Source of the DNA: Flagellimonas marinaquae
GTDB taxonomy: Bacteria; Bacteroidota; Bacteroidia; Flavobacteriales; Flavobacteriaceae
Length of the DNA: 64,000 nt
Direction of reading: 5' to 3'
NCBI RefSeq assembly: GCF_023716465.1
Contig: NZ_CP092415.1
Span: 399,001 to 463,000 of the forward strand
Below are positions 40,991 to 48,454 of the stretch, piece after piece. Position numbers and translations under genes: made by a program. Each line of letters opens with the position of its first letter. Within the stretch, counting starts at the first letter, position 1. The notes beneath the pieces are model-generated. The model had not been told where the DNA came from. It searched no databases and was given only the letters and a program-made list of their open reading frames with translations.

Positions 40991-41563
40991 ATGAAAAAGA
41001 CAATTTTAAGTTTAGCATTGATTACCCTTTTTGGAGCTTCGGCCATCGCCAACCCCATTAAAAAAGAAACCAAAAAAGTAAATACTTCCGAAAGTAGCGT
41101 AGTTTGGAAAGGCTACAAAGTAGGTGGATCGCACACAGGAACCATCGATCTAAAATCCGGGGTATTGGAATTTGACGGAGAAAAATTGGTAGGTGGAGAA
41201 TTTGTAGTGGACATGGGCACCATAAACGCCACTGACCTAGAAGGTGATTATAAAAACAAATTGGACGGTCACTTAAAGTCCGACGACTTTTTTGGAACTG
41301 CCAATCACCCAACGGCCAAATTGGTTTTCACCAAAGTAAAATCTACTGGAAAAAACTCTTATGATGTAACCGGAGACCTTACCATAAAAGGCAATACAGA
41401 ACCTGTATCTTTTGTAGTCTCTGTGTATGGCGATAAAGCTACTGCTACATTGAAAGTTGACAGGACAAAATACGACGTAAAATACGGTTCTGGCATTATT
41501 GGCACTGCCAAGGACAAATTGATCTACGACGAATTTGATTTGGTAGTTGACCTACAGATGTAA
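40991..41563 (+). CDS. YceI-family periplasmic lipid-binding protein
   Basis: 190 residues. The signal peptide (1-20, GASAIA-NP) is followed by a lipocalin-like YceI barrel: SSVVWKGYKVGGSHTGTIDL, then LDGHLKSDDFFGTANHPTAKLVF and a C-terminal FDLVVDLQM. YceI proteins bind isoprenoid chains. It is the last gene of the marR-nitroreductase-yceI operon, 34 nt after the nitroreductase, and is followed by a terminator. Confidence 0.93.
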   Translation: MKKTILSLALITLFGASAIANPIKKETKKVNTSESSVVWKGYKVGGSHTGTIDLKSGVLEFDGEKLVGGEFVVDMGTINATDLEGDYKNKLDGHLKSDDFFGTANHPTAKLVFTKVKSTGKNSYDVTGDLTIKGNTEPVSFVVSVYGDKATATLKVDRTKYDVKYGSGIIGTAKDKLIYDEFDLVVDLQM

Positions 41564-41584: not shown

Positions 41585-41621
41585 AAAATCCCGTTCAAGA
41601 ATTCCTTGAGCGGGATTTTTT
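41585..41621 (+). terminator. Intrinsic terminator after yceI
   Basis: AAAATCCCGTTCAAG pairs with CTTGAGCGGGATTTT (41585-41599 with 41605-41619, one G-U), followed by T residues, 21 nt past the stop. Confidence 0.9.
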
Positions 41622-41635
41622 AATTTAAACATAAC

Positions 41636-41670
41636 TTTGTTGTACCATAAAAAATTCCTTCCTATCTTTG
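41636..41670 (+). promoter_or_regulatory. Promoter of the trp operon
   Basis: TTG at 41640-41642 (or TTTG at 41636-41639), a 20-nt (or 23-nt) spacer and TATCTTTG at 41663-41670 match the flavobacterial promoter consensus. The predicted start, about 5-8 nt past the -7 box, falls at or beside the leader ATG at 41676. Confidence 0.7.
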
Positions 41671-41675
41671 ACTCA

Positions 41676-41732
41676 ATGATTAACAGAATAGCAAATAACT
41701 GGTGGTGGATAAACTTACGTCAAACGTCGTGA
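41676..41732 (+). CDS. trpL: trp leader peptide
   Basis: 18 codons, MINRIANNWWWINLRQTS, with three consecutive TGG codons at 41700-41708. It lies between the trp promoter and an intrinsic terminator, 74 nt before trpE. This is the layout of transcription attenuation: when charged tRNA-Trp is scarce the ribosome stalls on the Trp codons and read-through into trpE is favoured. The stop codon overlaps the segment (41726-41732) that can pair with the terminator, so a ribosome reaching the stop would mask it. Confidence 0.88.
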   Translation: MINRIANNWWWINLRQTS

Positions 41733-41776
41733 GCTAAGTCCCCATTATAACCATACAAGAGGCTTGTCATCACGAC
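41726..41776 (+). promoter_or_regulatory. Antiterminator pairing of the trp attenuator
   Basis: GUCGUGA (41726-41732) is perfectly complementary to UCACGAC (41770-41776). The latter includes the first three bases of the 3' arm of the terminator, so the two structures exclude each other. Seen as a 7-bp match; function inferred. Confidence 0.55.
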
Positions 41777-41788
41777 AAGCCTTTTTTA
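41757..41788 (+). terminator. trp attenuator terminator
   Basis: GGCTTGTC (41761-41768) pairs with GACAAGCC (41774-41781), extended by an A-T and a G-U pair outward, loop of 5, then TTTTTT. It lies between trpL and trpE. Confidence 0.9.
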
Positions 41789-41805
41789 ATTTATATAAGT
41801 ACCCA

Positions 41806-43203
41806 ATGAGTTACACGCTTAAAACCCATTACAAAAAAATCCTCGCGGACACCATTACCCCCGTGAGCGTTTACCTAAAGATCAGGGACAAATTCCCCAA
41901 CAGCATACTTTTGGAAAGTAGTGACTACCATGCCAACGACAACAGTTTTTCGTACATCTGCTGTAACCCGATAGCATTCATCAAGGTAGAGGACGAAACC
42001 ATTGTACAAAGCTTTCCCGATGGCAAAAAGGAGGTAACCAAAATTGCCTCCGACACCGACATCACTAAAGTAATCCACAACTTTAGCAAGCAATTTAATA
42101 CCACGCAGAACGGGTTTAAATTTATCTACAATGGCCTCTTCGGTTATATGGCCTACGATGCCGTTCGTTACTTTGAGGATATCCAATTGAATAAAAAAGA
42201 TGGCTCGGTAAATATCCCCGATATCTATTATGCCGTGTACCAGAACATAATCGCTATCAATCATTTTAAAAACGAAGCCTACCTTTTTGCCCACTGCTAT
42301 CAGACCGAAAGCAATGTTGAAGAAATAGAACAACTCTTTAACGTACGTACTTTTTCATCGTATAATTTTAACAAGGAAGGCGACCCAAAATCCAATCTAA
42401 AGGATGAAGATTATAAAGAGCAGGTCGAATTGGCAAAAAAACATTGTCAACGTGGCGATGTGTTCCAACTGGTGCTCTCCCGAAGGTTCCAACAAAAATT
42501 TAAGGGAGATGAGTTCAATGTATATAGAGCACTAAGATCTATTAACCCCTCCCCCTACCTTTTTTATTTTGATTATGGCAACTTTAAAATATTCGGAAGC
42601 TCGCCAGAGGCCCAATTGATCGTAAAAGATGGCAAGGCAGAGATTCATCCCATTGCCGGAACCTATAAACGTACCGGAAACGATGAAAAAGATGCCGAAC
42701 TGGCAAAAAAATTGGCCCAGGACGAAAAAGAAAACAGCGAACACGTAATGCTGGTAGATCTTGCCCGAAACGATTTGAGCCGTAACGGAAATACCGTAAA
42801 CGTGGAAACCTATCGAGAAGTACAGTACTTCTCCCATGTCATTCATTTGGTATCCAAAGTAACTGGCCTTAAGAAAAAAGACAGTACAACCATGAAAGTG
42901 GTGGCCGATACTTTCCCGGCAGGAACGTTGAGCGGTGCTCCCAAACACATGGCCATGCAACTTATCGAGAAATATGAAAAAACAAGCCGTTCCTATTATG
43001 GAGGTGCCATAGGTTTTATGGATTTTGAAGGCAACTTTAACCACGCCATTATGATCCGCACATTTTTGAGCAAAAACCACGAATTGTATTACCAAGCGGG
43101 AGCAGGTCTGGTAGCAGCCTCCAATCCTGATGACGAACTCCAAGAGACCTATAATAAATTGGGTGCATTGACCAAAGCACTGGAAATCGCCGAAACAATC
43201 TAA
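41806..43203 (+). CDS. trpE: Anthranilate synthase component I
   Basis: 465 residues from the ATG at 41806 (MSYTLKTHYKK); an upstream TTG frame start lies inside the terminator. The LLES motif (SILLESSDYH) is the Trp feedback site. The C-terminal catalytic part has GDVFQLVLSRRF, HPIAGTYKRTG, ARNDLSR and the FPAGTLSGAPK motif. It makes anthranilate from chorismate with ammonia from TrpG. It is the first structural gene of trpEGDCFBA. Confidence 0.97.
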   Translation: MSYTLKTHYKKILADTITPVSVYLKIRDKFPNSILLESSDYHANDNSFSYICCNPIAFIKVEDETIVQSFPDGKKEVTKIASDTDITKVIHNFSKQFNTTQNGFKFIYNGLFGYMAYDAVRYFEDIQLNKKDGSVNIPDIYYAVYQNIIAINHFKNEAYLFAHCYQTESNVEEIEQLFNVRTFSSYNFNKEGDPKSNLKDEDYKEQVELAKKHCQRGDVFQLVLSRRFQQKFKGDEFNVYRALRSINPSPYLFYFDYGNFKIFGSSPEAQLIVKDGKAEIHPIAGTYKRTGNDEKDAELAKKLAQDEKENSEHVMLVDLARNDLSRNGNTVNVETYREVQYFSHVIHLVSKVTGLKKKDSTTMKVVADTFPAGTLSGAPKHMAMQLIEKYEKTSRSYYGGAIGFMDFEGNFNHAIMIRTFLSKNHELYYQAGAGLVAASNPDDELQETYNKLGALTKALEIAETI

Positions 43204-47692: not shown

Positions 47693-48454
47693 ATGAACAG
47701 AATCAAACAAAAACTACAGGAGGACAAAAAAATCCTTTCCATATATTTTTCAGCTGGTTACCCCAATTTGAACGATACCGTAAAGATTATCCAAGATTTG
47801 GAAAAGAACGGTGTCGACCTCATTGAAATCGGGCTTCCCTTTAGCGACCCTTTGGCCGATGGACCTACCATACAAGAAAGTTCCACGGCTGCCCTAAAAA
47901 ATGGAATGAACACTGACCTGCTTTTTGAGCAATTGAAAGACATCCGCAAATCGGTGTCCATACCGTTGATTTTAATGGGATATTTTAATCCAGTCCTCCA
48001 ATATGGAGTGGAAGCGTTTTGTGCAAAATGTGAGGAAATTGGGGTCGATGGGCTTATTCTTCCCGATCTACCGTTGGATGTGTACAAAGAAGAATATGAA
48101 ATCATCTTTAAAAAACATGGATTGATCAACGTTTTTCTTATTACACCACAAACCAGCAACGAGCGCATAAAAGCGATCGACGATGCATCCGAAGGTTTTA
48201 TTTATATGGTGAGCTCGGCAAGTACCACAGGAACAAAGCAAGGTTTTGGTCCCGATCAGACCAACTATTTTAATCGCATAGCACAAATGGACCTTAAAAA
48301 TCCGCAGATCGTTGGCTTTGGTATCAGCAATGCCGAGACATTTGGGCAAGCTACCCAACACGCAAAAGGTGCGATCATTGGTTCGGCCTTTATAAAACAC
48401 CTAACAAAAAATGGAGTGGACAAGATTGATCACTTTGTAAAGCAAATTCGTTAA
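47693..48454 (+). CDS. trpA: Tryptophan synthase alpha chain
   Basis: 253 residues, TIM barrel. The catalytic Glu (LIEIGLPFSDPLADGP) and Asp (VDGLILPDLP) and the phosphate loop GFGISNAE are present. It cleaves indole-glycerol phosphate and channels indole to TrpB. It is the last gene of the operon. Confidence 0.97.
   Translation: MNRIKQKLQEDKKILSIYFSAGYPNLNDTVKIIQDLEKNGVDLIEIGLPFSDPLADGPTIQESSTAALKNGMNTDLLFEQLKDIRKSVSIPLILMGYFNPVLQYGVEAFCAKCEEIGVDGLILPDLPLDVYKEEYEIIFKKHGLINVFLITPQTSNERIKAIDDASEGFIYMVSSASTTGTKQGFGPDQTNYFNRIAQMDLKNPQIVGFGISNAETFGQATQHAKGAIIGSAFIKHLTKNGVDKIDHFVKQIR

Follow-up and report, generated by a model that had tools for sequence, protein, structure and literature searches.

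Upstream of trpEGDCFBA, the window (the whole 64,000-nt stretch of DNA from a marine bacterium that was analysed) holds a leader ORF, an intrinsic terminator and a pairing alternative to that terminator. trpE is followed by trpG, trpD, trpC, trpF, trpB and trpA, in that order. Each of trpG, trpD, trpC, trpB and trpA scored above the cut-off of a fitting model; the best model for trpE was TIGR00564 trpE, at 444.6 bits and under its cut-off of 517.7, and the best match of trpF was also under the cut-off of its best model. An earlier note on this DNA had described an 18-codon leader with Trp-Trp-Trp, a terminator with a U-run before trpE and a 7-bp alternative pairing. All three are present, at 41676-41732, at 41758-41784 and between 41726-41732 and 41770-41776. 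The leader ORF runs from an ATG at 41676 to a TGA at 41730-41732, and its stop is separated from trpE by 73 nt, with the terminator in between. The features of the locus are as follows.

41663..41670, + strand: predicted TAnnTTTG promoter box (TATCTTTG), with a start predicted near 41675
41676..41732, + strand: leader peptide ORF, MINRIANNWWWINLRQTS, 18 codons and UGA; from the sequence, kept in 79 of 80 relatives selected by TrpE
41700..41708, + strand: three tandem Trp codons, TGG TGG TGG, the putative stall site and part of segment 1; from the sequence
41700..41747, + strand: 1:2 protector hairpin, 41700-41710 with 41738-41747 and 41714-41719 with 41728-41733; from the fold, its z value and covariation at 41714:41733
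41726..41740, + strand: antiterminator strand 2, overlapping the last codons and the stop of the leader; from folds
41761..41776, + strand: antiterminator strand 3, comprising the 5′ arm and loop of the terminator plus three bases at the start of its 3′ arm; from folds
41758..41789, + strand: intrinsic terminator 3:4, stem 41757/41758-41768 with 41774-41784/41785, and U-run; from sequence, fold and alignment
41806..43203, + strand: trpE, encoding component I of anthranilate synthase, at the head of trpEGDCFBA, which ends at 48454

The promoter box ends 5 nt upstream of the leader AUG. Since such boxes sit at -12 to -5 in the account given in parts of PMC9723704, transcription is predicted to start at A41675. 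The sequence thereby predicts a transcript that begins about 1 nt before the leader AUG, an almost leaderless attenuator mRNA. A second hairpin with a T-run, noticed by eye at 41590-41622, lies 3′ of a YceI-like gene (40991-41563) and immediately 5′ of the leader promoter; it looks like the terminator of that gene.

We also searched for other regulators. Neither TrpR (PF01371; controls positive in E. coli and B. subtilis) nor TRAP (PF02081; control positive in B. subtilis) had a match in the genome. Scoring 150 of the 161 T-box candidates with a covariance model gave no genome match at E 0.001 (B. subtilis and other control genomes were positive), and no T-box scored above the gathering score in the window. 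The lack of a match to any of the three counts in favour of the attenuator reading.

Alternative hairpins and modelled ribosome positions

Folding 41720-41794 yields the terminator, with an energy of -17.2 kcal/mol and a z of -4.1 that 0 of 200 shuffles equalled; its arms AGGCTTGTC and GACAAGCCT enclose the loop ATCAC and are followed by a T-run. In the 1:2 hairpin (-17.3 kcal/mol, z -3.3), the Trp codons and CUUACG at 41714-41719 are paired with strand 2 and its flank. GTCGTGA at 41726-41732 is the exact complement of TCACGAC at 41770-41776; as the earlier note had it, the former overlaps the leader stop and lies 17 nt past the last Trp codon. The note further held that the antiterminator avoids the terminator 5′ arm, unlike that of E. 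coli. That claim fails in the window itself, where the 7 bp continue inward as UAAGUC (41735-41740) paired with GGCUUG (41761-41766), so that six bases of the 5′ arm lie in the same helix. Altogether, 41726-41733 and 41735-41740 pair with 41761-41766, 41768 and 41770-41776. The two 2:3 helices are weak singly (-7.3 kcal/mol for the 7 bp and -2.1 kcal/mol) and reach -12.9 kcal/mol combined, or -14.4 kcal/mol in the freely folded form. When folds were begun at 41721, with segment 1 absent, 2:3 structures came out best wherever the 3′ end lay within 41767-41782, and from 41783 on the terminator took their place; 41735-41740 paired with the 5′ arm before the remainder of strand 3 was made. On this modelling, 2:3 leads the terminator by a few nucleotides. 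The modelled hairpins 1:2, 2:3 and 3:4 are mutually exclusive, a layout of the classical three-hairpin type.

Ribosome states were compared as mean pair probabilities, with assumed leading edges of the ribosome. For a stall on the third Trp codon (edge 41718) and a transcript extended to 41780, the 2:3 block reached 0.997. For a stall on the first Trp codon (edge 41712) it reached only 0.53 at the same transcript end, because the inner 1:2 helix can persist. A ribosome on the stop codon (edge 41742) gave a 2:3 value of 0 and a terminator value of 0.98 at 41782; with the ribosome absent, inner 1:2 stood at 0.998 and the terminator at 0.999 at 41784. The values of 0.997 and 0 for 2:3 support in silico the earlier proposal that a stalled ribosome frees the strand and a finishing ribosome masks it. 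Strand 2 ends 8 nt beyond the leader stop, and ribosome cover past a stop codon extends up to 12 nt according to parts of PMC4833913. At equilibrium with strand 2 free (edge 41718), the terminator still wins (0.984 at 41790); read-through must therefore rest on kinetics, with 2:3 forming first and persisting.

For the attenuator itself we infer how it responds to Trp, where the ribosome stands, the kinetics and the extent of read-through. When Trp is plentiful, the ribosome would reach the UGA at 41730-41732 and cover strand 2 (41726-41740), upon which the terminator 3:4 would form and transcription would stop. When charged tRNA-Trp is scarce, the ribosome would stall at 41700-41708, break 1:2 and free strand 2, which could then pair with the emerging 41761-41776 before strand 4 is complete and let the polymerase read on. 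If no ribosome is present, 1:2 would hold strand 2 and the terminator would form. We are confident that the element is a ribosome-mediated attenuator of the classical E. coli trp three-hairpin type that couples transcription of trpEGDCFBA to charged tRNA-Trp. Leader and RNA stop signal together very probably gauge tryptophan, as a switch of a known kind.

Relation to Bacteroid-trp and the E. coli trp leader

Positions 41656-41768 match the Rfam family RF01692, Bacteroid-trp, over model positions 1-131; the score of 62 bits exceeds the gathering score of 49, and E, taken over the whole window, is 3.4e-5. Matches at E ≤0.1 occur in 251 of 299 genomes of the window's family, and 184 of the 299 reach the gathering score; in a sample across the phylum, the corresponding counts are 35 of 296 at E 0.01 and 28 of 296. 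Two weak matches in the genome that holds the window, L002 (24.3 bits, E 4) and L003 (23.6 bits, E 5.5), are probably chance. RF01692 is located upstream of trp biosynthesis genes in Bacteroidota; here trpE lies downstream, and the nearest relatives by TrpE are Flavobacteriaceae. Family and window share the place upstream of trpE and the Trp-codon leader; the Rfam hairpin corresponds to 1:2, and the model ends within the terminator 5′ arm. However, the RF01692 model has the 1:2 hairpin only. The present description adds the terminator and the 2:3 antiterminator from the window, whose leader, at 113 nt, is shorter than the 131-position model.

The E. coli trp attenuator has a leader with two tandem Trp codons, the alternative hairpins 1:2, 2:3 and 3:4, and a strand 2 beside the stop. 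In common with it, the window has a tandem-Trp leader ORF, an intrinsic terminator between leader and first gene, the same three hairpins and a strand 2 that adjoins the leader stop. In silico, 2:3 excludes the terminator and uses its 5′ arm, a pairing weakly conserved inside the family, and a 1:2 protector, with covariation in its inner part, covers the Trp codons and strand 2. The window differs in having three Trp codons instead of two, a strand 3 that continues across the terminator loop and takes in the opening 3 nt of the 3′ arm, a promoter box 5 nt before the leader AUG, and no TrpR found in the genome.

Bacteroid-trp was listed in 2010 by Weinberg et al. as probably RNA and cis-regulatory (in the part cited of PMC2864571). 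For F. psychrophilum, the passages cited place Bacteroid-trp upstream of the trp operon and call it similar to the E. coli trp leader (PMC6414381), and infer leader-peptide attenuation upstream of amino-acid operons (PMC9723704). These passages concern another genus and contain neither an antiterminator pairing nor a test of the Trp response; the part of PMC7366714 considered does not mention trpE. A search of the literature, covering few of the subscription papers, turned up no experiment that tests a trp attenuator from Bacteroidota. A 2010 paper by Lopatovskaya et al., referenced in PMC4833913, may treat Bacteroidetes. Attenuation had already been inferred for the motif, and the discovery is modest: the window element is an ordinary, genuine trp attenuator, with a pairing model fuller than the earlier one. 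A published, thinly described Rfam motif thereby gains an explicit model, with paired bases and ribosome stand points, that is testable by mutants. As for the earlier note, its reading of a ribosome-mediated trp attenuator in a flavobacterium is supported by the Rfam match and by 79 of the 80 relatives; the oddity it claimed is largely removed, and it had missed both the 1:2 hairpin and the Rfam family.

Conservation in Flavobacteriaceae and across Bacteroidia

Both the sequence elements and the three helices that exclude one another in silico are conserved. Eighty close relatives selected by TrpE (76-94% identity) were inspected, and a Trp-run leader with a terminator is present in 79; the 80th (L078) starts inside trpE and has no upstream DNA. 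The conservation of Trp run and pairings that the earlier note had proposed as a check is found. Pairing was assessed on 128 distinct sequences from 135 loci of the Flavobacteriaceae type, with slid registers as controls. The terminator was paired in 98.9% of cells (best slid control 61%), the 7-bp block of loop and 3′ arm in 92% (best slid control 63%) and inner 1:2 in 86% (best slid control 57%). In contrast, the 5′-arm part of 2:3, in the window's register, was paired in 65% of cells against 70% for a slid control, and outer 1:2 in 69% against 71% for its best slid control, so that these two parts are unsupported by the slid-control test in Flavobacteriaceae. They fail in part because most members lack the base at 41736, a position that is occupied in only 14 of the 128 aligned sequences. 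For the 12 nt that follow GUGA, pairing with the 5′ arm averages -4.4 kcal/mol, a small gain over their own shuffles (-3.9 kcal/mol, sd 2.1). The earlier description of the antiterminator therefore holds in that the loop and 3′-arm block is its best conserved part (92% against 65%), although it had not seen the whole helix.

The clearest covariation lies in 1:2, at 41714:41733 (C-G 80, U-A 33, A-U 3). Within Flavobacteriaceae, covariation proved uninformative as proof of 2:3: the 7-bp block is almost invariant, with a change on both sides at one of seven pairs, in one row, and the 5′-arm part, which does not exceed slid controls, has one pair with such a change (2 rows). Diverged classes were used instead.

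A scripted scan covered 214 loci: the window, L004-L083 (selected by TrpE), L084-L139 (by Rfam match) and L140-L216, among which L200-L203, L215 and L216 were picked by Rfam match. The 71 class-level loci selected by TrpE (L140-L199 and L204-L214) are a subset of 83 non-self places, of which 12 were left out, six of the window's own family and six others. A Trp-Trp leader with a terminator was found by script in 195 of the 214 loci, at least four places being duplicated among the 195 (L138/L184, L139/L180, L118/L197 and L137/L215). At class level the count was 55 of 71. Of the 19 failures, 16 are class-level loci; the other three are L043 and L051, false misses in which leader and terminator are present, and L078, without upstream DNA. 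By eye, L145 and L179 have Trp-Trp-Trp leaders and a hairpin, L146, L147, L150 and L152 have Trp-Arg-Trp trpE leaders, and L140 has Trp-Cys-Trp. In L205 a possible leader carries one Trp, a contig end truncates L151, and L185, L207 and L209 seem to lie directly 3′ of another trp gene; L162 and L165 have a terminator without a clear leader, and L141 and L186 nothing clear.

The sequence of strand 2 is very different between lineages, for example GAACAGC with GCUGUUC, GGCAACCC or GGCAACC with GGGUUGCC, and ACAGUAGGC with GCCUACUGU. We compared 48 diverged Bacteroidia representatives, obtained by collapsing rows of >0.72 similarity. Strand 2 pairs with its own terminator at a mean of -16.0 kcal/mol and with foreign ones at -11.3 kcal/mol (0 of 5000 permutations), a test that ignores base composition and lineage kinship and may overstate the strength. 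Split by part, own against foreign, the 5′ arm by itself gave 0 of 5000 permutations, as did the loop taken together with the beginning of the 3′ arm; 1:2 likewise gave 0 of 5000, and the 3′ arm by itself 276 of 5000. Individually, strand 2 ranks its own terminator in the best 5% against foreign terminators in 21 of the 48, with z below -2 in 26; 1:2 has z below -2 in 18. In every one of the 195 loci the best strand-2 duplex draws on 3 nt or more of the 5′ arm, and in 192 of them on 4 nt or more, some chance extension being possible. Together with the permutations for the 5′ arm alone, these duplexes tell against its exclusion from the antiterminator across the wider set.

The same mechanism might nevertheless work with an antiterminator of just the 7 bp with loop and 3′ arm, in which the terminator 5′ arm has no part. 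We think this unlikely. It would accord with the Flavobacteriaceae-type loci, where conservation within strands 2 and 3 is highest in that block, the 5′-arm part does no better than a slid control, few sequences have a base at 41736 and pairing of the tail with the 5′ arm hardly beats its shuffles. Against it, the 7 bp alone give -7.3 kcal/mol in the window compared with -12.9 with the 5′-arm part, 41735-41740 pairs with the 5′ arm before the remaining strand 3 exists, and the 5′ arm alone was matched by none of the permutations in diverged classes. On window folds, the duplexes of the 195 loci and those permutations, the 7 bp were rejected as the full antiterminator helix; they stay a rival given the Flavobacteriaceae pairing test.

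Two further proposals concern what the leader does. Besides attenuating in cis, and compatibly with it, the terminated leader RNA or its peptide could act in trans as rnTrpL/peTrpL of Sinorhizobium meliloti does, a precedent from another phylum (described in parts of PMC7298713); we hold this to be quite improbable. The end of the leader peptide, N-L-R-x-T-S, is often conserved, but its conserved codons fall on bases that belong to 1:2 and 2:3, and RNA pairing therefore accounts for them. Far less credible still is that the leader boosts trpE translation by ribosome reinitiation, with a hairpin that terminates incidentally or constitutively. Such reinitiation at leader genes has been put forward for bacteria, Bacteroidetes among them, but in the parts of PMC4833913 cited the proposal covers distances of ~10-14 bp, compared with 73 nt and a terminator here, and it leaves the Trp run and the conserved 2:3 and 1:2 pairings unexplained. 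Attenuation in cis through the full 2:3 helix is the reading we retain.

Promoter spacing and neighbouring genes

A TAnnTTTG box lies ≤45 nt upstream of the leader AUG in 171 of the 195 loci, with a spacing of 5 nt in 56. In other lineages the spacing is 16-18 nt, and transcripts there would not be leaderless. As background, among the window's 32 ORFs of at least 200 aa, 3 have a box no more than 45 nt upstream, in one case at 4 nt. According to parts of PMC9723704, leaderless mRNAs make up 5.5% in F. psychrophilum, and the group in question is reported to be without Shine-Dalgarno sequences. We give an even chance to a joint reading, in which the sensing ribosome of this clade loads on a leaderless 5′ end (start about 1 nt before the AUG), and the three-hairpin plan extends through much of Bacteroidia with an antiterminator sequence that was repeatedly rebuilt, the plan sometimes occurring twice in a genome, once before trpE and once before trpD.

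Some loci differ in their gene neighbourhood. At L200, L201 and L202 (genomes G548, G428 and G502), a second Trp-run leader and terminator were seen by eye before a gene like the window's trpD; trpE has its own Trp leader elsewhere in G548 (L175) and G502 (L174), and its leader is unclear in G428 (L162). Seven of the 79 close relatives (L005, L011, L016, L017, L020, L030 and L063) carry a small ORF between attenuator and trpE, and their leader lies 490-578 nt before trpE. In L005 this ORF (1176-1460) encodes a GIY-YIG domain protein (Pfam, 62 bits), and the other six are alike by eye.
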